Shown here piece by piece: positions 1,053-43,134 of a DNA stretch of 47,988 nucleotides. A program made the position numbers and the translations under genes. The notes beneath the pieces are model-generated. The model was given only the letters and a program-made list of their open reading frames with translations. It was not told the origin of the DNA and searched no databases. The stretch is from IMG/VR virus record IMGVR_UViG_3300044653_000035, positions 1-47,988 of that record. One strand, given 5' to 3'. This stretch comes from a virus. How positions within the stretch are numbered: the stretch's first letter is position 1; each line of letters opens with the position of its first letter.

Positions 1053-1427
1053 ATGAAGCATGTAACAGCAATCATGGCAATCCTGCTATCTACGTTAGGA
1101 GCAATGGCTCAAGATGTTAACAGCCCATTTGCTGAAACTCCGGGGCATTGGGTTTTGGTGTATCGCGTAGGTGCGATTCAGAAGCACAAAACATTTCCCC
1201 ACAAATCTGCCGCCGATAATTGGGTAGATCACCAACCATCTACCTATGTAGCGGTCGAATTAAAACACGGCGGGATTTTATATCCCTGCCAAACCTACTA
1301 CACGAATACGTATGAGTATGGCAAGTTGGTTCACTACAAAGAAGTACGCTGCTATTCCAAGGCGGAGGAAGAAGAAAATGAACGTAGGAATCCACCTCAA
1401 ACCGCCTTTGGATGGACGGTGAATTGA
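1053..1427 (+). CDS. Small exported early protein with Sec signal peptide
   Basis: The 124-residue product begins MKHVTAIMAILLSTLGAMAQ, a clear Sec signal peptide with a predicted signal peptidase I cut after A-M-A and Gln at +1. The mature part of about 105 residues has two cysteines (YPCQ and VRCYS), so one disulfide is possible, and a charged C-terminal tail. An AAAGGAGAG ribosome binding site precedes the ATG. An exported protein in an early operon is a candidate for superinfection exclusion or envelope modification, but nothing in the sequence shows its function. Confidence 0.75.
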   Translation: MKHVTAIMAILLSTLGAMAQDVNSPFAETPGHWVLVYRVGAIQKHKTFPHKSAADNWVDHQPSTYVAVELKHGGILYPCQTYYTNTYEYGKLVHYKEVRCYSKAEEEENERRNPPQTAFGWTVN

Positions 1428-6215: not shown

Positions 6216-8381
6216 TTACGGTGTTCCCAAAAGCAACTGCGGTGCCACGCCGGGTGAAGCCGTCCCACTCCCATACTCCACACCGCCGATCGCTGGAGGA
6301 TTAGGCCGACTAGCTCCGAAAAAGTCTGTCGTAATGCCCATATAAGGCGTTCCGGCACCAATAACAGGACTGCCCGATGTCAGATTCGCCTCAAATGTAG
6401 GGCCAAGAGTTTCATTGAGCAACAGAGGGTCTGTCTGACAGAGGTAATTCGTGGAAGTGATGACGCCGCCTGTCGCCGCTGTGACATAAGGGCATCCGGA
6501 AGTAGGTGTGTTCCAGTAGTCGTTGTGGTCGTCCACGATGGTTGGATTACAGAACGGAGTGCTGCACGTTCCCATCGTCCCACCGCCTTGCCAAGCATAG
6601 GGTATCGCGCTATAGCCATTCTCAAGAATAATGTTGTTTTTGAAAGTGACATTGGCGATGATAGGGTCCGATGTTGTGCAGTTTGCCCACGCTCCTCCTG
6701 AAATACTCCGACAGCCAACAAAAATTGGCTGGCTCGACGCCGCGACTGGAGGCCCGGTAATTGTATTGAAGGCGACGTAAGATTGAGTTTCGTAAGTTGA
6801 AATAATTGCCATTGCAGCGCCACCCGCTCTGCAATAGGGACCGTGGTAGTTGCTTCCAATAGCAGTTGAAAGATAATCGCAATTCCCCACCGCGAAGTTA
6901 TTCCAAATGTAGAACTGCCCCGCACCCTTTAGCTGATTGCCTGAATTTCCCCATGCGTAGACTTGGCTTTCTTCAACCTGTGCATTTTGCTGATCGAAGT
7001 AGAGCGTATCGATTCCATCCTGTGTGTTCCCGAATACCCAGGCCTTGCTCACGATGAACGTACCACCCGTATGTCCAAACCCCATGCCATCGACGCCATC
7101 GCTCTCAGTGTCGAGACTGCTCGTATTCGGTACATCATAAGGAAAGGTGGTCATGCCAGTGGAATTTTGCGCAGCGATCTGCGAAGCAAATGTTACTCCG
7201 CTGGGCAAGCTCACAGAAGATGGATATGGCTCAAGAACTCCGTTCAGCGACACAATGATATTGGTGGCGGTGATCGTGCCTTCGTTGTTACTGTAACTGC
7301 CTCCAGTACCATCGAAACCACCTTGGCCGTTGCCGCTGAATACGGAGTTTGTAATGGTGCCGCCATTCAAAGGGCCGCACTCGCATCCTGTTGCTCCAAG
7401 GCCATGTATCCACATATTGTCGAGGATGAGGTTAGACACCAGCAGCCCTTGAATGCCGTTTCTCCCAATTGCTATGTTCAGACTGGGAGCATTGTTGTAC
7501 TGACCTCCATAGGCATACTGCACATGATCGTCAATATTCAAGCATCCGAACTTGATATTTGCGGTTCCGAGATTGGGGTAATTCGTCCACGAAGTTGCAG
7601 AGAACCCGCCCATATTGAACATCCCGCCCGGAGCGCCCAAAGCATAAAGTTCCGGCATCAATTGCGTGTGACAACCGCTCGGCTCGTCTTTCCCTTCAAT
7701 AGTCGTTGGATGTGTGCTATCCGGTCCTGAAGGCAATCCATACACGGACAGTTGAGCATTTTGGTTATAAGTCGTCGAGCAGGAGCCAGCGAAAATATCT
7801 ATTGCCGCCTGCGGAGCGCCCGGTCCGCACCCCATCGCGTAGCTTCCCGGCTCAATGATTACCGTATCGCCTCCTGCGAAACCGTTCCATACTGTCCCGC
7901 CAGTAGCCAGCAAATAAAACGGGTGGTCGTAAGCACACGCTTGTCCGGTTCCGCTTCCAGGGTATGCCGCATCAGTCTGCCCTGTACAATTCGTTGCATT
8001 GCTGCCATCGGTTCGCACGTACCAGTTGATAGGCGAACGAACCGTGAATAATTGACTTGCGACAGAGCTATTCGTCTGTCCGGATTGAGTTGAGATGGCT
8101 TTCACGGTGACGGTTGTCGTTAGCAGAATCGGCGTTGAATAAGTCTGCGTCGTTCCGCCAGAGCACGTTCCCGCCGTGGGTGCGGTGGGAGTCGATCCGT
8201 CAGTGGTGTAGCAAAGCGTCGCGCCGGACGGAGGGACGAGATACAAGGGGTAGCCTGATGTGCCAGCGGTGTAATATCCCGAACTTCCCGTAATCAGTTG
8301 TCCTTGCGGAGAAAACACCGGGACGGCTAATTGCGCCCATGCGGGAGCGGCTAGGAGGAACGCAAACCGGAGAAACCTTAC
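6216..8381 (-). CDS. Tailspike-like protein: signal peptide, chitobiase C-terminal domain, beta-helix
   Basis: The frame encodes about 720 residues. It opens with RFLRFAFLLAAPAWAQ, a near-perfect signal peptide cut after A-W-A with Gln at +1. About 90 residues like the CHB_HEX_C domain of secreted glycosidases follow (GATLCYTTDGSTPTAP, TVTVKAIS), then a long region rich in short Asn/Gly turns typical of a right-handed parallel beta-helix (GGTITNSVFSGNGQGGFDG, FKNNIILENGYSAI). Such spikes often bind or cleave surface polysaccharide. The mature part has 18 cysteines. The start is a problem: there is no ATG, GTG or TTG near the signal peptide. I placed it at GTA 8381, which overlaps the upstream TAA. 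The next upstream candidate, GTG 8501, would bury the signal peptide. Confidence 0.7.
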   Translation of the reverse strand, partial: VRFLRFAFLLAAPAWAQLAVPVFSPQGQLITGSSGYYTAGTSGYPLYLVPPSGATLCYTTDGSTPTAPTAGTCSGGTTQTYSTPILLTTTVTVKAISTQSGQTNSSVASQLFTVRSPINWYVRTDGSNATNCTGQTDAAYPGSGTGQACAYDHPFYLLATGGTVWNGFAGGDTVIIEPGSYAMGCGPGAPQAAIDIFAGSCSTTYNQNAQLSVYGLPSGPDSTHPTTIEGKDEPSGCHTQLMPELYALGAPGGMFNMGGFSATSWTNYPNLGTANIKFGCLNIDDHVQYAYGGQYNNAPSLNIAIGRNGIQGLLVSNLILDNMWIHGLGATGCECGPLNGGTITNSVFSGNGQGGFDGTGGSYSNNEGTITATNIIVSLNGVLEPYPSSVSLPSGVTFASQIAAQNSTGMTTFPYDVPNTSSLDTESDGVDGMGFGHTGGTFIVSKAWVFGNTQDGIDTLYFDQQNAQVEESQVYAWGNSGNQLKGAGQFYIWNNFAVGNCDYLSTAIGSNYHGPYCRAGGAAMAIISTYETQSYVAFNTITGPPVAASSQPIFVGCRSISGGAWANCTTSDPIIANVTFKNNIILENGYSAIPYAWQGGGTMGTCSTPFCNPTIVDDHNDYWNTPTSGCPYVTAATGGVITSTNYLCQTDPLLLNETLGPTFEANLTSGSPVIGAGTPYMGITTDFFGASRPNPPAIGGVEYGSGTASPGVAPQLLLGTP

Positions 8382-8485
8382 CTTCCAGCGGCCGCCGGAC
8401 TTTGAGTTGGATCTGGTATCGGCGATGTCCCTAACCCGAGCGAAAGCAACGCAAGCACAAAGATTGTGAAGATGAACGTTTTCAT
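8378..8485 (-). CDS. Small hydrophobic peptide upstream of tailspike (35 aa)
   Basis: ATG at 8485 opens MKTFIFTIFVLALLSLGLG followed by TSPIPDPTQSPAAAGR and a TAA. It looks like a signal peptide or membrane anchor with a short Pro-rich tail. Its stop (TAA) overlaps the GTA that begins the tailspike signal peptide. Either it is a coupled leader peptide or it is the true N-terminus of the tailspike displaced by a frameshift. The ribosome binding site is weak. Confidence 0.35.
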   Translation of the reverse strand: MKTFIFTIFVLALLSLGLGTSPIPDPTQSPAAAGR

Positions 8486-8518
8486 GGCACCATGATCTCA
8501 CAAATTGGATGGATTGTC

Positions 8519-9352
8519 TCATAGGCCCGTGAATCCATTCAGGCAAGCCGCCTGGGTGTTCATCTGCGTTCCGGTCTTCACGGATGGATCGGTCGATGCC
8601 CACCACAAGTGAGCAGCAAGGAAATCCGCTGCACCTTCGGCTCGCGCCCCCATTTCATCCATACCTGCGGCAAATCCGCTGGCAGCACACGCCCCTCCGA
8701 ACGACACCATACTATGGCTCACGCAGGTTCCTGATGAACAAATATAGCTCGTGCAGACTCCGGCGCTATTGTCGTAGGTCAAGCCTGTGATGATGAAACT
8801 GGTTGTTCCATAAGTGGTCGAAGTATCGACGACCGCAATTGAGCCGCCTTCCGAGACCAGTACGGGATAGCTTCCGCCGCTGTAACCTCCTCCCCACAAG
8901 ATAGCCCCCGTCCCGTTACCGGCCAAAATTCCAGAGGGGTTAGTTACACTGGTAAATTTAAGGACTGCCATCATTGTGAAGGAACTGCTTGAATTGATCG
9001 CGCTGCTCAATTTAAGCCAGTCGGAAGTTCCATTGAAAGCGGCTGTAGCGAGTGTCCCATTGAGATCATTCGGCGTGTAAACCGGTTCATCGCCACTTGT
9101 GCTTTGCGTGAGGTTAGAACCTCCCACGCTCCCATAATCAGTCAACAAGGTGAGGTTTGTGCTGCTGCCGCAAGATCCGGAGCTGCCGCCGTTGCAGCCA
9201 GTCTTGTAAGAGCCGGCCCATGTGTGAGCCCAGGTGCCGCATGGACCGGCGGCTGCACGCGACTTAAAATCCCGCTGCCCAATCTGCCACTGTGCAGAGC
9301 AAATTTGTGCGGTCAATAACAGTCCGAATATTACCTTGCAGAGACGTTCCAT
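8519..9352 (-). CDS. Exported LamG/lectin-like protein
   Basis: The 277-residue product begins MERLCKVIFGLLLTAQICSAQ, a Sec signal peptide cut after C-S-A with Gln at +1. I chose this ATG because an AGGAG lies 10 bases upstream and it restores a normal signal peptide. The mature region has Gly/Ser/Asn-rich beta strands with the pattern of a concanavalin A-like (LamG) sandwich: TAAFNGTSDWLKLSS, SFTMMAVLKFTS, TSFIITGLTYDNSAGVC. Eight cysteines remain after cleavage. It overlaps the upstream fibre gene by 22 bases. It probably binds a surface glycan, and whether it is in the virion is unknown. Confidence 0.7.
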   Translation of the reverse strand: MERLCKVIFGLLLTAQICSAQWQIGQRDFKSRAAAGPCGTWAHTWAGSYKTGCNGGSSGSCGSSTNLTLLTDYGSVGGSNLTQSTSGDEPVYTPNDLNGTLATAAFNGTSDWLKLSSAINSSSSFTMMAVLKFTSVTNPSGILAGNGTGAILWGGGYSGGSYPVLVSEGGSIAVVDTSTTYGTTSFIITGLTYDNSAGVCTSYICSSGTCVSHSMVSFGGACAASGFAAGMDEMGARAEGAADFLAAHLWWASTDPSVKTGTQMNTQAACLNGFTGL

Positions 9353-12300
9353 GTTGTGCTGGCTCCTGTGGTAACCGTTGACCCGGTATCGTTGCAAACG
9401 TAATAGCTCAGGGTTCCTGAGGCCGAGGGCCACGCTTGGAAGTAAAGCTGCCCGGTGGTTGCCGGTGCCCATCCCGTCACGTCCGTCACGTCAGAATTTG
9501 GCGTGAATGTGGCCGTCATGGTGGTAAGCAGGCCGGTCATGCTTACCGTGCTTGGGGTGCCGGACGAGCCTGTGACGCTGCTGCACGCCCCAGAGGAAAA
9601 GGCTACCGAGCCGCCTACAGTGATTGTCGTATCCGCGACAGGGTACGCTGCTGCGTTTGCATAGGCCGTCGTTGCGATCTTTGTGGAGTTATCGCCTGCG
9701 CTCTGCGTCGTGGTCGTGGGCGATCCAGCGAAGGCAACAGACGACGCGATTTGTGTGCCCGTGATCGTTGCGCTGGTGATGTCAGCCGCGACGATCAAAC
9801 CGCTCGTCACAGCCTGCGTGCTCCCCGCGAAATGGGCTATGCCTACCCCCGGCGAAGAGGATGTAACGCACGACGCGCACGCAATGGTCCCGGTGCTGGT
9901 GATCGTCCCGCCGGTGATGGGTGAAGTGGTGGCGACGCTCGTCACAGTTCCACCGCCGCCGCTGGCCGCCGTGCAACTCGCCCGGATATTCGTCCCGTCG
10001 GATTTCAACGTCACCGTCTCGCTGGCGGTCAAGGTCAGCGTCGTGCCTGAGATATACGTTGAGCAGTTGCCGCCATCCGCAATCGTGGTACCGCTGGCCG
10101 TCCATGTGCCGCCGCTGGAGGTCGTGACGGTGAAGAGCACAAAGGCGCTCGCTGCGGGCGTAGTACTGGTCGCGGAGCCGGTTGCGAAGTAGCACAGGCC
10201 GTTGGCGGGAGTGAAGGAGCCGGTTTCGTCAGTGCAGGCTGCGAGCGCGGGGGCTGGCGGGAATCCAGCGTCTTTGATCTGCCCATTTGTCCCGTTCATC
10301 ACTGCCGCATCGTTGGCCGTCGTGCCGCTTGTCGGCCCTGTGACGATTCCGGCCCCGGTTCCTGCCAGTGGTTCACTGCTCGTGACTGTCGAGGCGGAGG
10401 CCGCAATGGGAACTTGCCCTGCCGTCATGCCGGAGAGACCACTACTACCGCTGCCGCAAGCAGTACCGGTGTTCGTGACGTAGCCCGAAGTGTCGATCTG
10501 CAAACAGTTATGGCCGCTGCCCGCCGCCTGCGTTGGAAACTGGATATTGGGGCTGGTTACTTCAAAGAGAGACGTGAGGCCGACGATCTGATTTGTTACC
10601 TCTAAGTACGATGCGTAACCCTGTCCATGAATCACAACGCCAGTAGCAGTTGCTCCCGTCTCCGCTCCAATGTCGATAAGATTTGTGCCGAGGCCGTAGG
10701 AGCCGTTTGCATATCCGATATGCCCCTGGTTGGTCTTCGTCGAGCCGTCTTGAAAGAATATGCCGCTCAGTTGGTTTGCCTGTGTGCTGTAAACAGCGAT
10801 CGGAACTCCATCACCTGCCGCGATAGTCAGACAGGTCCCGGTGCTGCAAGATGCCAAATTCAAAATCCAGTTGCCATTGCTGTCTGTGCTGATGGGCCAG
10901 TTGTAGTAAGGCGCAAGATTGCTTCCCGGACCGCCCCCAGCCAGCAGTTGATTGTTCGCGTAAGCAGCGAATGTGTTATCTCCGCCCAGAGTCCAGTGCG
11001 TGTTGTCGTAGGAGAAAAACCCTGGATCGGTGTTGGTCTGAATGGCCGACGTAGTGTCGATCAGCAAGTCGTAATCGATGCCCTGAATCGTATTCTGACG
11101 GAGAATCTGCGCGGCCTGCTGGACCTTGTTGATGAAAGTGCCGCTCATCGACGAACCGGTGCCTCCCGCGTAAGTGCTGCCCACATTCGGCGTCATGATG
11201 ATCGTCTTGCAACCTGCTGCCTTCAAGTAATGACTGAGGGAAAGATACTGAGTCACAGCTTGTGGCGCAGTCAGGTTAGGATGGCTTCCGTAACTGCTCA
11301 TGGAATTGAAGAGGCCGCTGCCGCCGAGAATGACATAGTGGTTCCCCGAACCGGCGCACATGGTCGCGTAGTTATTCGTCGTCGCGGCAGACCACATGTC
11401 GGTCACGTTCGATCCACCCTCGGCGTTATTCACAAAGGAAGAGACTCGACCAGTCATCGCACTCAAAGTGGTGAGCTGCTTGGGCCACGGGTTGTTGTAG
11501 CAGAGGCTCGTTCCGCCGATGATGGTGCAACTGGATGCGGGGACCGTAAGTGTAGCGCTCGCTCCTGACCCTGCGCCGCAACCGCTCACCGTCGCTGTCC
11601 CTGTGCCGCTCAATCCTTGACCGAAGTAAGTCAGCGTCCACTGCACTTTTCCTGCCGCATCCGTATAAGCGCCCATGGTGGGCTGTGCTGTGCCAGTCAA
11701 TCCCGAAATGCTTACAGTACAGGTTGCATTCGGTGTATAGCCGGAGCCGCCATTCGTCGCCGAAGGGACCACTTCTCCTTGAACGTCTACCGACTGCTCA
11801 AGCGACGCACCCAGTAGATGCAGGTCGAATGAGGCTGGGAACGGGGAGGAGCCGCCGCTGCCGGGGCAAGCCAAGACGCCCGTACTTGCGTTCACAGTGC
11901 ATGTCGAATTATCGGGCTTCACTCCGCCAAGCGTGGAAGGCTGCGCGATGGGCAGGGTGTAGGAGCCACTACCAACCTGCACGTAGTTCGTACCGTCGTT
12001 GCCAACGGATACCGTAGTCCCATTTGCAATGGTGATGCCCGATCCACTTGGACCGATAATCTGGATCGATTGCCCACCCGTCGTCTTGTTCTCAATCGTG
12101 AAACTGAATCTTCCCGCCGGAGTGATGAGATTTCTTGTCCCGGTCAAACTCACAGAGCTCGTGACGGTAATAACCGAGGGCGATTGGGCGGAGCTCTCCT
12201 GAGCCGTCATCGTGTGGTTAGCATCGGATGCGAAAATGAGCGTCCCATTATTGAAACATGGAAAGCCTTGGCAGCCTAAATTTCCCGTCAGATTAATTTG

Positions 12301-12402
12301 AGGAGCCGGAATTTGAGAAACTGCTCCACGAGAGCAGAAAACAATGGCGATTCCTAACAGGAGGATGTATCCTTTCCTCATGTCAAAGTTAATGGATTTC
12401 AT
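9331..12402 (-). CDS. Exported tail fibre-like protein with split SGNH-hydrolase domain
   Basis: This product of 1023 residues starts at ATG 12402, five bases after GGGAGGG. Residues 1-30 form a signal peptide (YILLLGIAIVFCSRGAVSQ). Residues 195-490 read as an SGNH/GDSL hydrolase: LLGAS (block I, nucleophile Ser200, usual Asp replaced by Ala), NNAEGG (325-330), ILGGSGLFN (358-366) and D466-x2-H469 (block V). About 80 residues of a GGSGYT-type module are inserted after block I. The C-terminal 350 residues are fibre-like (GTVTSVATTSPITGG, NSTKIATTAYANAA). There are 22 cysteines after the signal. Such fibres commonly bind or deacetylate host polysaccharide. Confidence 0.75.
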   Translation of the reverse strand: MKSINFDMRKGYILLLGIAIVFCSRGAVSQIPAPQINLTGNLGCQGFPCFNNGTLIFASDANHTMTAQESSAQSPSVITVTSSVSLTGTRNLITPAGRFSFTIENKTTGGQSIQIIGPSGSGITIANGTTVSVGNDGTNYVQVGSGSYTLPIAQPSTLGGVKPDNSTCTVNASTGVLACPGSGGSSPFPASFDLHLLGASLEQSVDVQGEVVPSATNGGSGYTPNATCTVSISGLTGTAQPTMGAYTDAAGKVQWTLTYFGQGLSGTGTATVSGCGAGSGASATLTVPASSCTIIGGTSLCYNNPWPKQLTTLSAMTGRVSSFVNNAEGGSNVTDMWSAATTNNYATMCAGSGNHYVILGGSGLFNSMSSYGSHPNLTAPQAVTQYLSLSHYLKAAGCKTIIMTPNVGSTYAGGTGSSMSGTFINKVQQAAQILRQNTIQGIDYDLLIDTTSAIQTNTDPGFFSYDNTHWTLGGDNTFAAYANNQLLAGGGPGSNLAPYYNWPISTDSNGNWILNLASCSTGTCLTIAAGDGVPIAVYSTQANQLSGIFFQDGSTKTNQGHIGYANGSYGLGTNLIDIGAETGATATGVVIHGQGYASYLEVTNQIVGLTSLFEVTSPNIQFPTQAAGSGHNCLQIDTSGYVTNTGTACGSGSSGLSGMTAGQVPIAASASTVTSSEPLAGTGAGIVTGPTSGTTANDAAVMNGTNGQIKDAGFPPAPALAACTDETGSFTPANGLCYFATGSATSTTPAASAFVLFTVTTSSGGTWTASGTTIADGGNCSTYISGTTLTLTASETVTLKSDGTNIRASCTAASGGGGTVTSVATTSPITGGTITSTGTIACASCVTSSSPGVGIAHFAGSTQAVTSGLIVAADITSATITGTQIASSVAFAGSPTTTTQSAGDNSTKIATTAYANAAAYPVADTTITVGGSVAFSSGACSSVTGSSGTPSTVSMTGLLTTMTATFTPNSDVTDVTGWAPATTGQLYFQAWPSASGTLSYYVCNDTGSTVTTGASTTWNVSAR

Positions 12403-12841
12403 ACGAACCCTCCCGGAAACCGATGACTGCATTGATTGGCCGTTTCATACGAACAAGATGACCGGCTATGGTAGCTTCAAAATCACCGTAAGCAAGGGCA
12501 AGCAAAAGAATCATCCTGCCCACCGTGTCTCTTACCGCGTCCACAAGGGCGAAATTCCCGAGGGCCTTAACATCGATCATCTCTGCAACAATCCACACTG
12601 CGTGAATCCTAAACATCTCCAAGCGGTTACGCAGCGCGAAAATGTACTTCGCAGTAATGGAATATGCGCCAAATTTGCAAATCAAACTGAATGCAAGAAT
12701 GGTCACCCATACACGCCAGAAAACACCGCCTACGCAAAGCGCGACGGCGCTCGCGAATGCAAGGAGTGCAACAGACAGAAATCTCGAAAGTTTTATCACA
12801 ATAACCTCATGAGACAATCTTCGGCTCGAACGTCCCCGTAA
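12380..12841 (+). CDS. HNH endonuclease, antisense between fibre genes
   Basis: The 153-residue product has a full HNH domain: AHRVSYRVH, then NIDHLCNNPHCVNPKHL (about 64-80) with the Asp-His pair, Asn and final His. A C-terminal zinc-like segment follows (CKNGHPYTPENTAY, ECKECNRQ). It is encoded on the plus strand in the gap between two minus-strand fibre genes, overlapping the first codons of one by 23 bases and the last codons of the other by 35. The start is not certain: ATG 12380 fits the family length, while 12344, 12365 and 12392 are alternatives. It behaves like a free-standing homing endonuclease. No other gene fills 12403-12806. Confidence 0.8.
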   Translation: MSKLMDFIRTLPETDDCIDWPFHTNKMTGYGSFKITVSKGKQKNHPAHRVSYRVHKGEIPEGLNIDHLCNNPHCVNPKHLQAVTQRENVLRSNGICAKFANQTECKNGHPYTPENTAYAKRDGARECKECNRQKSRKFYHNNLMRQSSARTSP

Positions 12842-13874
12842 GCGAATTTGTGGACTGATATAAGTACATAACCACGACGACGCCGAATTGATTTGTGAAG
12901 GTCACCGTTATCGGCGCGTTGAACGCAAAAGGGAAGCCTGTCTCGGCATCGACGAAGGTATGAGAACCGCCGAGGAGCAAGAGATAGATCGCCTGCCCGG
13001 AGACCGTAAACGGCCCGAAGGTTTCGCCTATCGTCTCCGTTCCAAGTTGCACGCTCGGCAAAACGTCTGTCGTCGAAAGCACGGCAGTCGTACCGCTGGC
13101 CGTGACTGTCGAAGTTGCTCCAGATGTTCCGGGTCCAGCGAAGATTCGTGGATTCCAAGTATAAGTCTGAGTAGCCATCTGCGCCGTAGCTCCTATCGCG
13201 TTTAAGGTGACCGTCGTACTGGTCACCGTAGTGTGGTGGAAACTTCCGACGATGGTCCCGCTTGTGAACGGCGAGATTAGATTCAGCGGAGAATCAATGG
13301 AATCGGTGTTGGTGATATTCGCTGATGAAGGGGTGCCGGAGTAGGTTGCGGAGCAAGTGGGATTAGTCACCGTCTGCCCGATTTCAAGCGATCCTCCACA
13401 TCCTGTGAATGAATTGATTGTGAATCCAGCCGTCAAAAATATCGTCACCGCGCCCGTGCAACTATTACCCACTAGCGGCGTGCAGCCGATTCCAGTTAGA
13501 GGCGTGATGGATGACACTCCTCCGTTGACCGTGCTCGCTGCCAGAACGTTTTGATCCGGATAAGTCAATGTTCCGGTGTAGGGGCTGTAGTAAACGACCG
13601 TCACGCATCCCTGCGCCGCGTAAGCGAAATTCTGGCCGAGGCCGTTCGTGAGAAGTGGTTGCGTTAATGGTGTCCCACCTGTTGCTTTCGGATAAAGCGT
13701 CGCCAAAACACCCGCTGGCTGTCCGCAGGCTGATTGGGTGTAGACGTTGATTGTCGCCCCAGATACAGCCTGACCTTGGGCGGTCGAAAGCTGAAACTGA
13801 ATCAGGCCGTAGGTCTGTGCGAGCGCACATCGCACTCCCAGCATAACTAAAATCAGAATGAATATGCGGCGCAT
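12807..13874 (-). CDS. Exported fibre-like protein
   Basis: The 355-residue product begins MRRIFILILVMLGVRCALAQ, a Sec signal peptide cut after A-L-A with Gln at +1. The ATG is preceded by AGGGGGATTG. The first 100 mature residues (YGLIQFQLSTAQGQAVSGA, INVYTQSACGQPAGVLATLY) resemble the small beta domain found at the N-terminus of many phage fibre and baseplate-associated proteins. The rest is Ser/Thr/Gly-rich beta structure. Six cysteines remain after the signal, all in the first half. It is the first of four adjacent exported fibre-like genes. Exact function unknown. Confidence 0.7.
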   Translation of the reverse strand: MRRIFILILVMLGVRCALAQTYGLIQFQLSTAQGQAVSGATINVYTQSACGQPAGVLATLYPKATGGTPLTQPLLTNGLGQNFAYAAQGCVTVVYYSPYTGTLTYPDQNVLAASTVNGGVSSITPLTGIGCTPLVGNSCTGAVTIFLTAGFTINSFTGCGGSLEIGQTVTNPTCSATYSGTPSSANITNTDSIDSPLNLISPFTSGTIVGSFHHTTVTSTTVTLNAIGATAQMATQTYTWNPRIFAGPGTSGATSTVTASGTTAVLSTTDVLPSVQLGTETIGETFGPFTVSGQAIYLLLLGGSHTFVDAETGFPFAFNAPITVTFTNQFGVVVVMYLYQSTNSLTGTFEPKIVS

Positions 13875-13882
13875 CAATCCCC

Positions 13883-14587
13883 CTAACTGCACAATTTGGC
13901 GACAATCGTTCCGCTTCCCGATGTCCCACTGATCGAGTACCGCGCGAAATTCGCCTTTCCATTCCACTGCGTTGTCCCATAAGTCGCCACGCCGCCGCTC
14001 ACCGTAACCACGTTTGTGATGGCGGTTTGCCATTGCGTCGCTGGAGTGTTCGTCATGGCAACTTGGAGGGCCACAACGCAGGCGGTGGGAAGCGTCGGGA
14101 AATTCACTTCGCATTCCAGGTACTCTGGGCCTTGGCCAGCATCCCACGGCACGGTGTAAGGTAGACCGACAGCTTGCGATTGTCCATTGGCTACCGTATC
14201 GCCAACTTCCGGCTGTGGAATCAGACCCGTGCCGCCATCCGCAGTTTTGGAGTAGACATTGTATCCGCTGCCAGTCACCGTCAGAGTACCTACGCCCGTG
14301 GCGGCGGTCACGGAAACCGACGATGCGGTGATCGCCGAATTCGTCACATTAAATTGCGGATCGGTGGCGAGACCATAAGCTGTCAGCACTCCATAGGGGC
14401 TTACAGGAATATCCCCTTCGACAATCGTGAAGTAATAGGTCAGCACTGTTGACGTGGACGCGACCGCGTTGATCGCAATTTTGGTCGAGGCTTTCGTTGA
14501 CGGAAAGCTACCGAACAAATAGGCAGGAATCCCTGGAATCAGTTTCTTCGGCACTGTGGCGAACGGTGATGCGTTGAAAACGGTCAT
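13883..14587 (-). CDS. Putative virion structural protein
   Basis: The 234-residue protein has no signal peptide. It consists of beta-type segments rich in Thr, Val, Ser and Gly (STVLTYYFTIVEGDIPVSPY, TASSVSVTAATGVGTLTVTG), ending ISGTSGSGTIVAKLCS. It overlaps the upstream gene by ATGA and precedes the exported fibre cassette. This suggests a tail or fibre-attachment protein that stays in the cytoplasm. I do not recognise a family. Confidence 0.65.
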   Translation of the reverse strand: MTVFNASPFATVPKKLIPGIPAYLFGSFPSTKASTKIAINAVASTSTVLTYYFTIVEGDIPVSPYGVLTAYGLATDPQFNVTNSAITASSVSVTAATGVGTLTVTGSGYNVYSKTADGGTGLIPQPEVGDTVANGQSQAVGLPYTVPWDAGQGPEYLECEVNFPTLPTACVVALQVAMTNTPATQWQTAITNVVTVSGGVATYGTTQWNGKANFARYSISGTSGSGTIVAKLCS

Positions 14588-18454: not shown

Positions 18455-19036
18455 TTATGGCCTCCCTACGGTGCTTAAAGGTGGTCTCACAGGGGTTTTC
18501 CCTCGTCCCCACCCGCCTTGCGTTCCCAGAGGGCTTGCCGTGCCGCTGCCGGTGCTTGCGAGAGGCGTCAACTGCGTCGATCCAGTTAAAGTGACGGCTG
18601 TAGGGCTCAAGCCGCCAAAATACACCGGGTCGGACGGAGGAGAGCCGGGGTCTTGTGAATATCCGCGAAAATACCACTTCTGCGTTGCCCCCGAATCGGT
18701 CTTTGACGGTAACTGAAGAAATGTTCCACGTGAAACACCCATATGGACCACGTGCCAATTCAATTGATCTGTGGAATGCTCTAAAAACCATTCCCGCGAG
18801 GTCGTATTCGGCGAAGCGTCGGTAATTGTGGCATGGACGATCTCACCCGACGCCTTGATGTTCAAGGCTCCGATGGTAGGGGGTTTAGGCAAAGCTCCCA
18901 CCGGAGAGGTGCCTGTATTAACTCCGATTCGGTTGAAAGCGCGAACCATGCGCTTCAGAATACTTCCGAGCACAGGATTCTCGTTCTGGATCGCCACCAG
19001 TTCCTTGCCGCCGTCGAAATTTAACCCTTGACTCAA
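18455..19036 (-). CDS. Putative virion protein with fibronectin III-like domain
   Basis: The protein is 193 residues long if started at the TTG at 19036, which overlaps the upstream stop (TTGA) and has GGGGAG seven bases upstream. A GTG at 19063 is the alternative. After a short N-terminal helix (NPVLGSILKRMVRAFNRIG) comes a beta domain resembling fibronectin III (IVHATITDASPNTTSREWFL, NWHVVHMGVSRGTFLQLP, KWYFRGYSQDPGSPPSDPV) and a Gly/Thr/Pro-rich tail. It lies between the large tail protein and the ejection proteins, so it is probably a tail component. Confidence 0.6.
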   Translation of the reverse strand: MSQGLNFDGGKELVAIQNENPVLGSILKRMVRAFNRIGVNTGTSPVGALPKPPTIGALNIKASGEIVHATITDASPNTTSREWFLEHSTDQLNWHVVHMGVSRGTFLQLPSKTDSGATQKWYFRGYSQDPGSPPSDPVYFGGLSPTAVTLTGSTQLTPLASTGSGTASPLGTQGGWGRGKTPVRPPLSTVGRP

Positions 19037-22000
19037 GAACTCGCTCCCCGGAAATCGCCCCACGGATGAGTCTGGAAATCGGCCATCATCTCACCGAGTT
19101 CAAAATACCCCGCGACTGGCGTTCCACTCTGATTCATTGAGAATTCGGTGAAGACTCTCTGCCCTCTTACTTCTTTGCGCCATTCGATGTTGTTGGTCAT
19201 CGAAAATGAAAGCGGAGGGGTGTAGGTTACAGTAAATTGCGCTGTTACATTGGCCCAATTTGGAGAAGAGGGAGGAACGCGATTCATCGGCGTCACTGCG
19301 CTCCAAATCTGCCCTTGATAAACCGCATACTGACCCGCTTGATAGACGCCGGTCGTACTCCAAAGCGGCGGCAATAAATTTGGATAATGACGAATTGTGA
19401 GACCATTTGCTACGGCAGAACCTTGCATGTTCGCCATCCACTTCGCCACGTACTTTTGTCCCGATCCGATCTGCATTGCCTGAGCTTTCTCGGTCCCAGG
19501 CTGCCCCGAAGTCGTATACAGCGGGGCAATCGGCACGCCATCATCTGTCGGCTGAATATCAGGCGAAAGCAAACGATAAATCTTGCCAGTTTGCTTTCCG
19601 TTGCAGAGAAAGATCGTATCGAATCCTTGGAGACCGTCGGCGCAAATTGCCGCGAACGGAGAAGAGATTTGGCCGATAGACCATTTACGTCTCATGTCCA
19701 TCGCCTTCAAATTACCGAACATCGTCACATGGACTGGTGGTGCTCCTTCAAGTTCCTGCGCTGTAGCACAGCCGTCATAGTTGCACATCAGATATACGTT
19801 CGGCTGTGTTGGATTGATGACTGTAGGCGCATTTGGAAGCCAGAAATTCGGAGTGTTCATCGCCACGCCGACATAAAAACGACGCGCACGAAGATCGTTC
19901 ACCAGCCAGAATGTCTGAGATACTTGCCAGTTGATCTGATCCCATAACTGATCTCCTGTCTGCATCGCCTGAAGTTCACGGCTGATGGGCATGGGCTTGC
20001 CGCCTTCAAACACGTTGATCCCGGTCTGATGAAGCGAAATATCCCAATCAGCACCTTGAGAAAAAGCGTTTGGCCCTACCGCTCCCGATCCAGCTTGCGA
20101 GATTTCGCGCGTCGTCCAATAGGAAGGTTCGTAGTTAGCAGCGTCTTCGACTTCGATCAGGGAGGTCGCTTTCTTAAAGCTCAACTGATCCTGAATGACC
20201 GTCGCCCCGTAGACAGGAAATTGATTCGCGGAATTTAGAGTCAATTGACCTGTATCGATGTCTACTTGTTCCGGTTCCTCGGCATAAGAAACCCAAACCA
20301 CGTTTGTTAAAACTGGCTGATTTGTGGGGAAGACTTCAATACGATCAATCTCGTAGTCTCCTCCGTCGGCAATGTTCTGTCCCCAGATGCGAAGTAAAAG
20401 ACCGGCGGGAATCGTTGGAAGCCCAGGTTGCGGAACGAGAGAAAAAGTGTAGGTCTGGAAGTCTGTTGTAAGCGATGCCAGAGGAATAGAAACACTGGCG
20501 AGAGTTGTGCCGTAAATTCCCTGATTGGAATTCGTGAGATCGATGACGATATTCCCCGTCGTCTGCCCGGAGGGAGTTCTCGCAGTGATGCGAAAACTGT
20601 AAGGAACCGGGGAGCCTTGAGGATTCAAGATCGGCTCGTTCCACACGTCCTGATAGGCCGACTGAGTAATCATCCCCAAAGTCGCTTGCGAGCTGCCGCT
20701 GTTGTTGACTACGTAAAGTGAGTTTCCAAAAATGGGACTGACGAGAAGACTCGCCGCAATTGATTGGGCAAATCCTTCATAAACGAGATTAGACGCCGCA
20801 TCCAGATTCCATCCAAGCGGAGTGGGCGAAGCACCTCCGGAAGTTGCGTTATACCCTCCATCGAAACTGAGATTGAGGAAGTTCTGAATCTTGTTCTGGC
20901 AGCCGATGTAAAAAGTGCGCGTAGCGTATTGGAGAATGACCGCCGGATTTCCGAGTTCGATCAGATTGAACAGATTGTTCCCGACTACGTCGATTGCATC
21001 CGATTCGACGAGAACGAAATCCGAGAACGTGAATCGCGCGGTCGTTGTCACGTTGTCTGGCACAAGGAACGACGAAGATGTGTACTGCACCCCGCCTACA
21101 GTGAAAAGAGTCGGGACTGTGGTGGTGTAGAAATTCGCACCCGGAACGCCATTCTGTCCCGCCTGCGTTGTGGCCCACAAACGGGCAATAACATTCGGAG
21201 GGCCGATTGGCGCAGAGACTTGCACGTAATTCGCTCCATTCGCCACATCATAAGTCAGCGGCGGAGAGGGAGCAGTATACAAACCATTCCGGGTAATAAA
21301 AATCCACACGGCTTGCCGGGTTCCTGCGCCGATTGGTAAAGTGCCTCCGGTGGCCGATCCCACTACCGTGATGGTGCCGCCCGTCGAATTTCCGTAAATC
21401 GGATTGACTGTTGTACTTCCGACATTCGGCGCGCCGGGATCGACGATGAACTGCGTACCTGCTGTTGTTGCTTGGCCCTCTTCGACCGCCGTCGGAAAGT
21501 TCAGACTCGACGCGAAACCTGTGATAGCAAAAGTTCCGCTCGTGACGCCTGTCGCCGTCGCAATCAGAGCATCTGTCACATTCAATACGCCGTTGGCATT
21601 GAGAGTATTACTGACGGTCACAAGTTGCCCGGACGTAGGAGCGATGCCGCTGACAAGCTCCCAAGTGTAAGTCGCCGTGCCTCCACTGAGAGCCGTCTGC
21701 GTGATGTTATAGGCACCTGCGTTGATTGCTTCAACGATTGGATAGACTCCATCCCACGCCGATACAGAAGCGCCCGCAATCGAAACTTGTGCGCCGGGGG
21801 CTAAACCGGGAACCGGAGTAGAAGTTGTGACTGTGGCTTGTGTGATCTGATACTGGCCGGTCGATTCGACCGTGTTCTGATAGCTGGAAGTTGGAAGCTG
21901 CACGGTGAAATAATAACGGTAATGATCCACTCCTGGCGGCAAAGCATTTCCGATACTCGTCACTTGGTAGATGCCGTTTCCATAAGGCGCTCCAGAAATG

Positions 22001-23712
22001 TAAACGTAGACCGGATAGCCCGCATTGAACGCGGCGACAAGAACTGTATCTTGCGCGATGGGTTGCGGGGAACCTCCGTAGTATGACGGGGAATAATAGA
22101 CTGTCAGCGTATTTCCTGCTGAAGTCGATCCAGGTCCGGCACTCCACAAAAGAACACTCAAGTGTCCCGGATCGGTGATGTCTGAGTTAGCCTCTGGTTG
22201 GGTGATCGTCGCAACCGGATAGGTGTACTGCGGGGTGAAAGTCGCACCGCTTTGAGAGAACGGCCCTCCTGCACCAATCGTAGACGCGACCTGAAATCCC
22301 GATCCGCTCAGGCCTGTCGAAAGAACGATAAGCGTCTGACCGTTTAGCCCCGATGCCCCTCCGGTTAACCCCGCGAAAGTTCCGACTTCGCCAGCGACGT
22401 AAGTGTTTGTCGCCGTGATTTCCGCGACCGATCCCGTGAAGGTTACGCTAGTGATATTTGCGATAGAACCGGACGCCTGAGAAGCCGTGACCGAGCCTGG
22501 CGAAGCTGGACCCACTTGCGTGATCCGGTCCCACCAGCCACCTTCAAAGTTGTATTGCCGGGGAATGTCCGTACCGGTTACCTGTCCCGTGAGAGTCGAA
22601 TTGGCAACGAAAGCACGGTCATAGACCGTCGCGCCGCTTCCATAACTACCTGCCGTCGATCCCACGAGAATTGGAGTCAGGACTCCGGGATTCGAGGTCG
22701 TATTTTCGAGATACCACGTTCCGTTGGCATCGAGCGCAAGTTTGTAACTGATCCCTGTCGGCGAAAGAAATTGGCCGACGTAATTGAAGTTCGCAGCATC
22801 AGGAACGAAATATGCCTGCAAGGTTACATAGCCGATAAAGATCGTCGCTGTTCCGCTGCTGGCATAGGTGATCCGCAGCCCGAAGGTAGTGCTGTTCAAG
22901 TCTGAATAAGACCACCCGCTTCCGAAAAGATTATTCATTCCCCCGACTGGAATTGTCGCTGGAGCGCCCAGACTACTGAAGGCTGTTACGGGTGTCCCGA
23001 CAGGCACTCCAGCCTTGAGCAGTTGAACGCTGATCTGTCCAAAGACCGTGCTCGCAGAATTCACATAAGTAAGTATCGAGACGACAAATCCCTGTGGAGT
23101 CTGATTTGAAGGAATAGAAAACCCGAACTGTTTGATGTCGATGGCGTCTGTCTGCGAAAGAACGCCGGAGGGTGTGGCGATACCGCTGTCCGCGCCAGAG
23201 TAAGTGGGAAGAATCTGCGTGACAGGCGAGAACGTGACTGAATTTCCGGCAATGGTAACCGGCGTGAAAATGAGTCCGTTAAGCTGCGGAGCGTTAGTCA
23301 ATCCGGAAATTGAATAGGTTTGACCCGCTGTGATCGCAGGAGGCGTCGAAGCAAAGGTGAGCGTAAGAACCGTCTGGAGAAACGAAGTGCCAGTCACAGC
23401 CATCTGCACGTTTGTGATCGTCAACGTAAATGGCGACAGAGAAGCACTGGCATAAAGACCAGTGTTCGTCAATACGTTCGCGGGATTCGACCACACCGCC
23501 CCACCCAGAGACGTATCAACTGCCGTCCCTCCTGGTGAAGGGCCGACAGAAGCTCCAGAATAAGTGAAAGGATTATTAAGGCCGCTGCGTTGCATGACGC
23601 GCGCGGCGAGAAAGTCCGTGTCATAGGTACGCGGACTTGCGCCATCGGGAAGCTCTGCCGGCCGTAATGACGCGACCAGACCGCCCGATGGCACGATGGA
23701 TACTTGCGCCAA
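19033..23712 (-). CDS. Giant tail / DNA-stabilisation-like structural protein
   Basis: This 1559-residue protein is the largest in the genome. The N-terminus (PSGGLVASLRPAELPDGASP, with DTDFLAARVMQRSGL) and the C-terminal third (MPNFW-type strands, LMCNYDGCATAQ, DTIFLCNGKQTGKIYRLLS) look like propeller-type tail proteins such as P22 gp10-like stabilisation proteins. The middle is a chain of Ig-like or module repeats (AGEVGTFAGLTGG, VSIAGASVSAWDGVYPIV). Only about five cysteines occur in the whole chain. It starts at TTG 23712, just after the upstream TAG. A GTG a few codons later is also possible. Likely part of the short tail or its hub. Confidence 0.6.
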   Translation of the reverse strand: MAQVSIVPSGGLVASLRPAELPDGASPRTYDTDFLAARVMQRSGLNNPFTYSGASVGPSPGGTAVDTSLGGAVWSNPANVLTNTGLYASASLSPFTLTITNVQMAVTGTSFLQTVLTLTFASTPPAITAGQTYSISGLTNAPQLNGLIFTPVTIAGNSVTFSPVTQILPTYSGADSGIATPSGVLSQTDAIDIKQFGFSIPSNQTPQGFVVSILTYVNSASTVFGQISVQLLKAGVPVGTPVTAFSSLGAPATIPVGGMNNLFGSGWSYSDLNSTTFGLRITYASSGTATIFIGYVTLQAYFVPDAANFNYVGQFLSPTGISYKLALDANGTWYLENTTSNPGVLTPILVGSTAGSYGSGATVYDRAFVANSTLTGQVTGTDIPRQYNFEGGWWDRITQVGPASPGSVTASQASGSIANITSVTFTGSVAEITATNTYVAGEVGTFAGLTGGASGLNGQTLIVLSTGLSGSGFQVASTIGAGGPFSQSGATFTPQYTYPVATITQPEANSDITDPGHLSVLLWSAGPGSTSAGNTLTVYYSPSYYGGSPQPIAQDTVLVAAFNAGYPVYVYISGAPYGNGIYQVTSIGNALPPGVDHYRYYFTVQLPTSSYQNTVESTGQYQITQATVTTSTPVPGLAPGAQVSIAGASVSAWDGVYPIVEAINAGAYNITQTALSGGTATYTWELVSGIAPTSGQLVTVSNTLNANGVLNVTDALIATATGVTSGTFAITGFASSLNFPTAVEEGQATTAGTQFIVDPGAPNVGSTTVNPIYGNSTGGTITVVGSATGGTLPIGAGTRQAVWIFITRNGLYTAPSPPLTYDVANGANYVQVSAPIGPPNVIARLWATTQAGQNGVPGANFYTTTVPTLFTVGGVQYTSSSFLVPDNVTTTARFTFSDFVLVESDAIDVVGNNLFNLIELGNPAVILQYATRTFYIGCQNKIQNFLNLSFDGGYNATSGGASPTPLGWNLDAASNLVYEGFAQSIAASLLVSPIFGNSLYVVNNSGSSQATLGMITQSAYQDVWNEPILNPQGSPVPYSFRITARTPSGQTTGNIVIDLTNSNQGIYGTTLASVSIPLASLTTDFQTYTFSLVPQPGLPTIPAGLLLRIWGQNIADGGDYEIDRIEVFPTNQPVLTNVVWVSYAEEPEQVDIDTGQLTLNSANQFPVYGATVIQDQLSFKKATSLIEVEDAANYEPSYWTTREISQAGSGAVGPNAFSQGADWDISLHQTGINVFEGGKPMPISRELQAMQTGDQLWDQINWQVSQTFWLVNDLRARRFYVGVAMNTPNFWLPNAPTVINPTQPNVYLMCNYDGCATAQELEGAPPVHVTMFGNLKAMDMRRKWSIGQISSPFAAICADGLQGFDTIFLCNGKQTGKIYRLLSPDIQPTDDGVPIAPLYTTSGQPGTEKAQAMQIGSGQKYVAKWMANMQGSAVANGLTIRHYPNLLPPLWSTTGVYQAGQYAVYQGQIWSAVTPMNRVPPSSPNWANVTAQFTVTYTPPLSFSMTNNIEWRKEVRGQRVFTEFSMNQSGTPVAGYFELGEMMADFQTHPWGDFRGASS

Positions 23713-34991: not shown

Positions 34992-35269
34992 TGCTTCTCC
35001 GGCTCATTCAATTCTGCCGTCTGGCTGCGGCGGATGCTGTCCCAATCTTGCGGGGTTGGGTCAGGAAGAGGAGGAGGGGGTGAATTGTCTCTGTCGCGCT
35101 TGAGGAATAATTGATTCTGGAGGGAGCGCTTTTCCTCTTCGAGTTGATCTATCTTCCGTTCCTGACGCGCGATGACCGTTTGCAGGTCCGAAACGCGCAG
35201 ATCGTGCCACGCGCGAAACTCCGCAGCGCGTTCCTTGATGAGATCGAAGTGTGCGCGGCTAAGCCACAT
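34988..35269 (-). CDS. Small coiled-coil protein
   Basis: I start this 93-residue protein at ATG 35269, which overlaps the terminase stop as TAATG and has GAGGG upstream. ATG 35284 is an alternative. Residues about 20-60 form a coiled coil (VIARQERKIDQLEEEKRSLQ), followed by a Pro-rich linker and a short charged tail. It could be a terminase accessory or head-assembly protein. Function unknown. Confidence 0.6.
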   Translation of the reverse strand: MWLSRAHFDLIKERAAEFRAWHDLRVSDLQTVIARQERKIDQLEEEKRSLQNQLFLKRDRDNSPPPPLPDPTPQDWDSIRRSQTAELNEPEKQ

Positions 35270-36831
35270 TATTCCCTCATCCACTCAGGTCGGTTGTCCT
35301 CGACCTGCGCCTTTTCCCGGTCCAGTGTCGCTTTCACCTGCTGAATCCTGCGCCACATAGGGTCTTCGATAGCAGCCAGCCTTTCGGCCAACTGCTCCTC
35401 TTCATCCTTAGGGTTAACGCTGGCGAAGAATGACATCGCCAATGTATCGCCGCAATCCGGGGAAGCCAATCCCCGCTTCATCATATCCTCTTTTCGCTCA
35501 AGTTGTATCTGATTTTTTGAGCTGAACATGTACTCGACGCCGGTTAGGTCAGTCTCTAACTCAGCTTCGTCGGGTATCTGAGCCGTCTCAAGCCATCCGC
35601 GCATCCGTCCCCATGCCTCAGCGCGGCGATTGAAATACATGAACGGATCATGAGCTGGTTGCGCCCCGTGAAACTCCTGAAGAATAACGTTCTTATGCTC
35701 GATAAACCACTTGCAAGCGCGTTCGTTGAAGCGAAGAAAATCAACCACCCCGCCGCCGATACCGTCTCCATCAATGACGATGGTGCGCGGGCATTCACGC
35801 TCTGCCTGCTCCAAGACGCGGAGAGCTACTTGAGGAACATCCAGGCCGCGCAACTTTGCCAGTATGCGGAAATGCGGACCTTGACGAAGGCCAATAACGC
35901 TCTGATTCTCACCAAAGCGTGCTACGTCCACGCTCATCACGCGGAAGCCGGTCGGAGAGGTGATACGCTTGCGAGCCGCCGCGACTAAATCCTGAGGGAT
36001 AAATTGCCTGCTGCCCGCACGCGGAAACTCCCCGCGAACGCGAACGCGCACAAAGTCAGAGTCTTCGCCGTAATCGTCAACCCATTCTTGGAATAGTTGC
36101 TTATTTGTCCCTGGAACGTTGCGGGAATCGATCTGCTTCGTGATCCAGCGGTGGCGTTGGGAGCCGAAACACTCACGAAATCTGCCAGTGTTCTCGGTTG
36201 GATTCCCGAACGCGATCCAGATAATCTCCGTACGCTCGTCCGTTAAAGCGCCCGAAGTAACTTCCCACACGATGTCATCGATGGTGCTGGACTCGTCGTA
36301 GATGATGACGATGCGCTTCCCGGAGTTGTGCAGACCGGCAAAAGCGCCGGGATTGTTCTTCGACCATGTATTCACGTCCGCGCGCCAAGTTCGTTCGTGC
36401 TCCTGATCGCGTGGCGTGATTGACTCAGCCTTTACATCCCACCAATGCGCGTTAATGCCGAGCTTGAACCATTTCGTGATCTCTGGCCAAGTTTTAGTCT
36501 CGATCTGCTTGCCGGTACCCGCCGTGACCGTGATGCGGCAGTCCACACAGGTACTCATCGCCCAATCCATCACCCAAGCGATAAGGGCCGATTTACCGAT
36601 TCCGTGGCCTGACGCGACTGCAAGCTGTAGAGGAACGAAGCGGCGATGGCTATTGAGATGGGTGCAGATTGTGCGGAGGGTGTCTATTTGCCATTCGTGA
36701 GGGCGGGAATCAGCTAGTTCTCCGGCCTCGCCCCAAGGATAAGCAAACTTCACGAATGATAGAGGATCGCTCTTGAAGCGAATGATGCTCTCGGCTAATT
36801 GATCCTCAAGACTCGATGCGCTTATCGGCAT
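35269..36831 (-). CDS. terL: Terminase large subunit
   Basis: The 520-residue product is the DNA-packaging motor. The ATPase has Walker A GHGIGKSA (74-81) and Walker B IVIIYDE (174-180). The RNase H-like nuclease has VDVARFGENQS (Asp302), IVIDGDGIGG (Asp354/356) and SPDCGDTLAM (Asp462). These acidic residues should bind the metal ions for DNA cleavage. It overlaps the small subunit gene by 26 bases and its stop overlaps the next gene. The ribosome binding site is weak, so it is probably coupled to the small subunit. The packaging type cannot be told from sequence alone. Confidence 0.95.
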   Translation of the reverse strand: MPISASSLEDQLAESIIRFKSDPLSFVKFAYPWGEAGELADSRPHEWQIDTLRTICTHLNSHRRFVPLQLAVASGHGIGKSALIAWVMDWAMSTCVDCRITVTAGTGKQIETKTWPEITKWFKLGINAHWWDVKAESITPRDQEHERTWRADVNTWSKNNPGAFAGLHNSGKRIVIIYDESSTIDDIVWEVTSGALTDERTEIIWIAFGNPTENTGRFRECFGSQRHRWITKQIDSRNVPGTNKQLFQEWVDDYGEDSDFVRVRVRGEFPRAGSRQFIPQDLVAAARKRITSPTGFRVMSVDVARFGENQSVIGLRQGPHFRILAKLRGLDVPQVALRVLEQAERECPRTIVIDGDGIGGGVVDFLRFNERACKWFIEHKNVILQEFHGAQPAHDPFMYFNRRAEAWGRMRGWLETAQIPDEAELETDLTGVEYMFSSKNQIQLERKEDMMKRGLASPDCGDTLAMSFFASVNPKDEEEQLAERLAAIEDPMWRRIQQVKATLDREKAQVEDNRPEWMRE

Positions 36832-42255: not shown

Positions 42256-42282
42256 CCTTTGGCGCGGGAAGGGATGAGGGAA

Positions 42283-43134
42283 ATGAACTGGATTGAAGAC
42301 GCAAACGGAAACAAATGTTCCGAGGAATATTTCGGATCGAAAGAGACCGCGCAGGCGGCGCTCGATAGCCTAATAGACTGCAAAAATTGTGTTAACTGCT
42401 CGGGCTGCTCGGACTGCTCGGACTGCTCGCGCTGCTCGGACTGCTCGGACTGCTCGGACTGCTCGCGCTGCTCGGACTGCTCGCGCTGCTCGGACTGCTC
42501 GCGCTGCTCGGACTGCTCGCGCTGCTCGGACTGCTCGCGCTGCTCGGGCTGCTCGGGCTGCTCGGACTGCTCGGGCTGCTCGGGCTGCTCGGGCTGCTCG
42601 GACTGCTCGGACTGCTCGGACTGCTCGGACTGCTCGGACTGCTCGCGCTGCTCGGACTGCTCGCGCTGCTCGGGCTGCTCGGGCTGCTCGGACTGCTCGG
42701 ACTGCTCGGACTGCTCGGGCTGCTCGCGCTGCTCGGACTGCTCGGGCTGCTCGGGCTGCTCTAATATCGCGTGGCTCAATGAAAAGAAGAACCTGAAAGG
42801 CGATCCCACGTCAACCTGGAGCGGACCGCCGTACATCCCGAAGATCGAGAACATCCACACGCGCATTTACGAAGCCGCGTCGATTCCCCCAGAAGCTCTT
42901 GAAATGGCAACTTGGCACACCTGCGGCACAACGCATTGCCGGGGCGGCTGGGCTGTGTTTCTGACTGGCGATGCAGGCAGAGCACTGGAAACGTTCCACG
43001 GCACATTGCTGGCCGCGCAACTGATCTACCGCGAGAGTGGCTACGCCATCAATCCGTGCCGGTTCTTCGACAGCAATGAAGAGGCCCTTGCCGACATGAA
43101 GCGACTGGCCGAGGAAGAGAAAGCCCAGAAATAG
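42283..43134 (+). CDS. Cys-x-x tripeptide-repeat protein with conserved C-terminal domain
   Basis: The product is 283 residues. After 36 normal residues come CKN and CVN and then 41 consecutive Cys-Ser-X units, where X is Asp, Arg, Gly or Asn. Such a repeat could form a narrow beta-helix or bind many metal ions. The last 110 residues form a globular domain (YIPKIENIHTRIYEAASIPP, MATWHTCGTTHCRGGWAVFL, NPCRFFDSNEEALADMKRL) that I have seen as the tail of phage repeat proteins. ATG 42283 is chosen by AAGGG nine bases upstream; an ATG at 42274 is close. Function unknown. Confidence 0.7.
   Translation: MNWIEDANGNKCSEEYFGSKETAQAALDSLIDCKNCVNCSGCSDCSDCSRCSDCSDCSDCSRCSDCSRCSDCSRCSDCSRCSDCSRCSGCSGCSDCSGCSGCSGCSDCSDCSDCSDCSDCSRCSDCSRCSGCSGCSDCSDCSDCSGCSRCSDCSGCSGCSNIAWLNEKKNLKGDPTSTWSGPPYIPKIENIHTRIYEAASIPPEALEMATWHTCGTTHCRGGWAVFLTGDAGRALETFHGTLLAAQLIYRESGYAINPCRFFDSNEEALADMKRLAEEEKAQK
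42397..42765 (+). repeat. 9-bp minisatellite, 41 units
   Basis: Forty-one direct units of TGCTCGxxC (TGC TCG GAC, CGC or GGC, with a last TGC TCT AAT) code for Cys-Ser-Asp/Arg/Gly. Units differ mostly in the first two bases of the third codon, so length changes keep the frame. All six frames are open across it, so overlapping long open frames here are artefacts. Confidence 0.9.

Follow-up and report, generated by a model that had tools for sequence, protein, structure and literature searches.

Predicted Sec export of cysteine-rich tail-spike and fibre-type proteins in a phage most likely infecting Acidobacteria

The virus studied here is IMG/VR record IMGVR_UViG_3300044653_000035 (G000), and its whole analyzed stretch of 47,988 nt is referred to as the window. 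The minus-strand structural module runs from the terminase through a gene for a 1559-aa tail protein and several smaller genes to four consecutive genes at its 3' end, which encode proteins A, B, C, and D, each with a Sec/signal peptidase I (SPase I)-type signal. We propose that these are tail-spike or fibre-type proteins that are exported by Sec and folded oxidatively, and that at least A docks on virions outside the cytoplasm; on sequence evidence we give this explanation about an even chance. The original prediction, made from the DNA letters of the window, described a whole cassette of fibre/spike-like proteins that look secreted and disulfide-bonded. It has gained support from equivalent signal-bearing, Cys-rich cassettes in 15 further Acidobacteriota phages and prophages (including three cultured isolates), from related protein pairs with and without a signal, from ten conserved cysteines in the D family, and from a preference for Gln directly after the cleavage site. 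The wider proposal, that many Acidobacteriota tailed phages finish their virions extracytoplasmically when Sec-exported, periplasm-oxidised spikes join fibreless particles at or after lysis, is held somewhat more tentatively.

Protein A (355 aa, 12807..13874, minus strand, as are B to D) carries a signal peptide (13818..13874, MRRIFILILVMLGVRCALA↓Q, the arrow indicating the predicted cleavage position), a tail-spike-type N-terminal (adapter) domain (13533..13817), and an unknown C-terminal part. The adapter domain is homologous to the N-terminal domain of tail spikes, and its signal-less homologues begin at the same residue. Protein B (1023 aa, 9331..12402) has a signal peptide (12316..12402, MKSINFDMRKGYILLLGIAIVFCSRGAVS↓Q) with a Shine-Dalgarno sequence GGAGG 6 bases upstream, followed by fibre-type repeats, an SGNH-like stretch, and a fibre-like C-terminus that prophage spikes also have. 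The SGNH-like stretch is degenerate and was read by eye from a DxxH motif (DNTHW); Pfam did not find it. Protein C (277 aa, 8519..9352) appears LamG-like by eye, has no family match, and starts with a signal peptide (9293..9352, MERLCKVIFGLLLTAQICSA↓Q) preceded by the Shine-Dalgarno sequence AGGAG. Protein D (6216..8501) is of the right-handed beta-helix type with CHB_HEX_C_1/Fn3_assoc and choice_anch_Q domains, the beta-helix similarity being weak. Its signal-type sequence (8334..8381, (V)RFLRFAFLLAAPAWA↓Q) is clear and had been recognized in the original prediction. The start then placed at 8381 did not hold up: this position is a GTA codon, there is no adjacent start codon, and the nearest in-frame ATG, GTG, or TTG before the hydrophobic stretch is GTG 8501, which gives a 40-residue leader. 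A 35-aa open frame with a hydrophobic start (MKTFIFTIFVLALLSLGLGTSPIPDPTQSPAAAGR, 8379-8484, minus strand) lies in this region and its stop overlaps the GTA where the D signal begins. Searches of PHROGs, NCBIfam, and Pfam gave almost no matches for A, B, and C. No close relative of C or D turned up in the IMG/VR search, nor any of B in that of the phage collection. Signal and cysteines aside, the architectures of B, C, and D are ordinary spike/depolymerase types.

Signals were scored with a rule-based Sec/SPase I scorer, on which known E. coli signal peptides range from 5.4 to 7.6 (nine out of ten at 6 or above, the tenth at 5.43). The scores of A, B, and C (8.26, 6.75, and 6.02) bear out the Sec signal peptides first assigned to them, and D scored 7.22. 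None of the 22 other structural-module genes reached a score of 5, and composition-matched random peptides score 6 at a frequency of 0.003. A positive n-region, a hydrophobic h-region, and an A-x-A site within about 30 residues are clearly present in A, B, and C and can be read in the sequence of D. In seven control phages (T7, phiV10, AF, Mx8, 11b, and parts of crAss001 and phi14:2) no fibre or spike was scored as signal-bearing, and the idea that any phage genome yields such matches was therefore rejected; the control matches were a spanin and lysis-type, small membrane, antisense, or unannotated open reading frames. Pfam detected no muralytic or spanin domain in A to D that would place them with the signal-arrest-release (SAR) endolysins or the spanins. 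The +1 residue is Gln in all four cassette signals. For the host cleavage preference we used 400 kb of G524, a single genome belonging to the same family as the Granulicella-type prophage host; +1 Gln occurs there in 39% of the predicted signals vs 4% background. The predicted cassette signals follow this host preference, and export of the cassette proteins is strongly supported as far as sequence can tell.

Could the N-termini be merely signal-like, that is, hydrophobic segments for virion assembly or membrane entry that are never cleaved? We regard this as very improbable. The cleavage of A to D is a sequence prediction, D has no proper start, and the c-regions of A and B contain a charged residue, all of which would suit uncleaved segments. 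Yet while the n- and h-regions vary, an A-x-A/S type site followed by Q is constant in nearly all family members, and this site matches the host family's own secreted proteins. Uncleaved segments are also hard to reconcile with signal-less homologues that start at the would-be mature residue and with cysteines that track the signal.

Total Cys in A, B, C, and D is 7, 23, 10, and 18, respectively; without the signal peptides the numbers are 6, 22, 8, and 18, and our recount agrees with the original one, including its five Cys in the 1559-aa tail protein (19033..23712, minus strand). The latter is of the cytoplasmic type with no signal, belongs to the same operon as the cassette, and was used as the query for finding relatives. 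An even number of mature Cys was counted in 25 of 29 signal-bearing family proteins (p = 5e-5) vs 15 of 35 control virion proteins. The median Cys content is 1.93% in signal-bearing proteins and 0.58% in signal-less fibres (p = 5e-6; the members are not fully independent). Ten cysteines are invariant between D and its homologues in the Tunturi phages. These even counts and invariant residues, together with a Cys pair that tracks the signal (see below), argue for disulfide-type pairing, and the cysteines of the cassette are predicted to be conserved and paired. Structure predictions gave a mean pLDDT (predicted local distance difference test) of 35 for A (6-row alignment) and 31 for D (single sequence). 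We rejected the possibility that host secreted proteins are simply Cys-rich, as the median in the predicted secreted proteins of G524 (400 kb) is 0.32%. Despite the common cleavage preference, the predicted products of the cassette differ from ordinary host secreted proteins.

The adapter domain is found in related proteins with and without a signal. A-type domains without a signal occur in G003 and in the prophages G007 and G588, where the proteins begin with MA at the point where signal-bearing forms begin with Q after cleavage. In a second branch of the domain, the signal-bearing protein of G564 (MKLKALLFAFLLPVPLHA↓QGVRYDSN) can be compared with signal-less proteins of G599 (MSGIRYDGN) and G524 (MAGIRYDSN); that of G524 gives a match to a PHROG tail-fibre family (1e-77). 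A Cys pair (VC...PCT) is present in seven of eight signal-bearing members of the second branch and in neither of the two signal-less members. In the A branch, G001 and G002 have a different common Cys pair that is absent from the signal-less forms; A of the window is also without that pair. Because the Cys pairs occur in signal-bearing and not in signal-less domain members, cysteine tracks the signal. Homologues lacking signals had been named beforehand as a finding that would speak against secretion. Some do lack them (G003, G007, G588, G599, and G524) and are without the conserved Cys pair, while others keep both.

When 16 such domains, with A of the window among them, were combined in one profile, it matched the N-terminal part (residues 15-82) of the 9vyg/9vyh tail spike in the PDB (E = 2e-6) and, weakly, the P22 tailspike head-binding-domain entries (E = 0.03-0.09). 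Either branch alone ranks 9vyg first with E of about 0.008-0.009 (0.009 for the A-type profile). Only about 126-129 residues are listed per spike chain in 9vyg, a length which we infer to fit a particle-bound N-terminal domain. Because the adapter profile matches the N-terminal domain of a tail spike, the mature N-terminus of A is most likely a virion-binding domain. No domain of this P22/9vyg type was recognized in B, C, or D. No MAT structures were among the PDB matches of the adapter profiles and no S74 domain appeared in the Pfam scans. A search of 396 Acidobacteriota genomes with the A-domain profile gave one match only.

Two IMG/VR contigs (G001 and G002) are syntenic with the window across the structural module, which places the cassette in a structural/tail operon. 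The equivalent site is marked by a conserved structural-module gene without a signal (13883..14587, minus strand), located directly upstream of A. Directly after its homologue, G001 encodes a single 1572-aa protein with the start MFRKLVFLLVTLGVSFGAAKA↓QSYGL and 30 mature Cys, and in G002 this place is taken by three large proteins, all with a signal, containing 23, 10, and 30 Cys. The N-terminal identity of the G001/G002 counterparts at A's site is 41-54%. More distant signal-bearing cassettes are found in G003, the Granulicella-type prophages G007 and G588, G564, G749, G758, G644 (signal read by eye), and the IMG/VR contigs G794-G796. The signal-bearing spike of G564 has a clear GDSL domain. 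In the two Granulicella-type prophages of this lineage, L048 (G007:C158) and L059 (G588:C64), the gene order is a signal-less adapter, a signal-bearing fibre of about 1150 aa, and a lysozyme. Among the cultured phages, the region from a tail gene to the endolysin holds five signal-bearing genes in Tunturi 1 and 2, of which four are large and encode Cys-rich products (10-34 Cys); Tunturi 4 has two (gp113 and gp114). D is homologous to gp17 of Tunturi 1/2 and gp114 of Tunturi 4. No signals were found on the fibres of Tunturi 3 or on those in the examined part of Tunturi 5.

The distribution of the cassette also bears on a different role, coating of the infected or lysogenic cell surface, either to block superinfection or to hide receptors and so keep progeny from re-adsorbing to dead cells. 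Export combined with a receptor-binding architecture would fit such coating, and two of the relatives (G007 and G588) are prophages. We consider it improbable, since the genes lie in a late structural operon and not where lysogenic-conversion genes would be expected, neither a lipobox nor an outer-membrane anchor was seen, and the cassette is also carried by plaque-forming isolates such as Tunturi 1.

Known tailspikes and fibres fold and assemble in the cytoplasm. In P22, spikes can join otherwise complete particles. For the window virus we propose that A to D would be made late, alongside the structural genes, and exported through the host Sec system, with SPase I cutting just before the glutamine. 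We infer that the proteins fold with disulfide bonds in the periplasm. Because A and its relatives have the tail-spike virion-binding domain immediately behind the signal, mature A would most likely attach to virions at or after lysis, when the inner membrane has given way, and the last step of virion assembly would then take place extracytoplasmically. The esterase-like B, the beta-helix protein D, and C probably follow the same path as companions of A that process receptors or polysaccharides. The original prediction had offered attachment after lysis, action outside the cell, or assembly through the envelope as possible functions. Among these options we lean towards assembly on the virion outside the cytoplasm, because the domain after A's signal matches the virion-binding domain of tail spikes.

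Several points weigh against docking. Dilution after lysis would hinder it, and B, C, and D are without a recognized virion-docking domain. The adapter in G003, G007, and G588 is a separate signal-less protein, and the exported fibre of these genomes may therefore be unattached. In Acidobacteriota chromosomes, the two genes L128 13810-17256 (G234) and L130 14016-16406 (G703) specify Cys-rich products that have both a signal and the adapter-type domain, with no phage genes seen within several kb. The presence of this domain is therefore not enough to identify a virion part, and there may have been exchange between phage spikes and exported proteins of the host.

These points feed a serious rival, which we rate as less than probable, namely that the proteins are free secreted enzymes or binding proteins, exported late to cleave or alter the exopolysaccharide or outer envelope of the host and thereby ease lysis, spread, and release from debris. 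The two chromosomal genes would fit it, as would the three to five different proteins of this kind encoded by several genomes, the enzyme-type domains (the GDSL esterase in G564; beta-helix plus CHB_HEX in D and Tunturi gp17), and the location just before the lysis genes in relatives. A signal-less adapter or fibre is also kept in some genomes (Tunturi 4 gp111 and the G007 adapter), and there is a precedent in Xanthomonas phage PBR31, where an SGNH esterase with a signal (gp40) is exported and encoded beside the spanins (PMC10975493). On the other hand, the mature forms of A and the G564 family still begin with a tail-spike virion-binding domain, which a free enzyme would not need. Furthermore, no other spike is recognizable in the window, G001, or G002, nor is a separate signal-less fibre in the structural module of the window.

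The window genome carries a 127-bp direct terminal repeat and is therefore probably complete, either circular or terminally redundant. Its host is most likely an acidobacterium, because relatives of the portal among GTDB genomes are confined to Acidobacteria metagenome-assembled genomes, one of them a Granulicella contig; a major capsid profile gave no match in the same genomes. The terminase (35269-36831, minus strand) shows about 45% identity to epsilon15-like phages, phiV10 and Pseudomonas phage AF among them. It is a mosaic, as its last 73 or so residues alone match the syntenic G001/G002 and the remainder is epsilon15-like. An HNH_3 endonuclease gene (12344..12841, plus strand) runs between A and B in the opposite direction and does not belong to the cassette; read in antisense, its 3' end gives a further signal-like start (VIKLSRFLSVALLAFASAVA). 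A 124-aa protein encoded opposite to the cassette strand (1053-1427, plus strand) has a clean signal peptide (MKHVTAIMAILLSTLGAMA↓Q). A 291-aa protein (42259-43134, plus strand) contains 47 cysteines (16%) and matches PHROGs of unknown function.

If the proposed explanation is correct, these tailed phages would assemble their virions by a route not yet described for such phages, and one would need to ask how spikes sent out of the cytoplasm reach particles assembled inside it. Acidobacteriota is a major soil phylum, and recurrent signal-bearing, disulfide-rich spikes in its phages would call for changes in the annotation of their host-range proteins and in the expression of these proteins for study. 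The explanation is directly testable because three cultured phages carry the cassette. These are Tunturi 1 and 2 (podoviruses) and Tunturi 4 (siphovirus) of Tunturiibacter (PMC11924767), which resemble the window virus in the signal-bearing, Cys-rich cassette and belong to different phage lineages; signal peptides are not mentioned in the main text of that paper. The original prediction knew of no phage system with such a cassette, and our literature search, with partial coverage, likewise found no description of exported fibres or spikes of tailed phages. The signal-bearing phage proteins that it found were spanins, endolysins, holins, one internal virion protein call, and an SGNH esterase. 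Spanins, SAR endolysins, and PBR31 gp40 also leave the cytoplasm, but they are mostly small lysis functions and not spikes or fibres. The Bdellovibrio MAT proteins (PMC10769870) are exported and fibre-like; they are encoded by bacterial genes, are cellular rather than phage-borne, and no sequence link to the cassette was found. Pantoea WceF (PMC7949094) is a beta-helix trimer that resembles tailspikes and acts on exopolysaccharide after export, but it is the product of a bacterial gene, uses a Tat signal, and has no virion. By homology the cassette would encode tail spikes, with a route undescribed for tailed phages. It resembles the P22-type tailspikes and the 9vyg/9vyh spike, with which it shares the N-terminal virion-binding domain (in A), the spike/enzyme C-terminal parts, and the place in the structural operon; it differs from them in the Sec signal that precedes the domain and in the Cys-rich mature parts.

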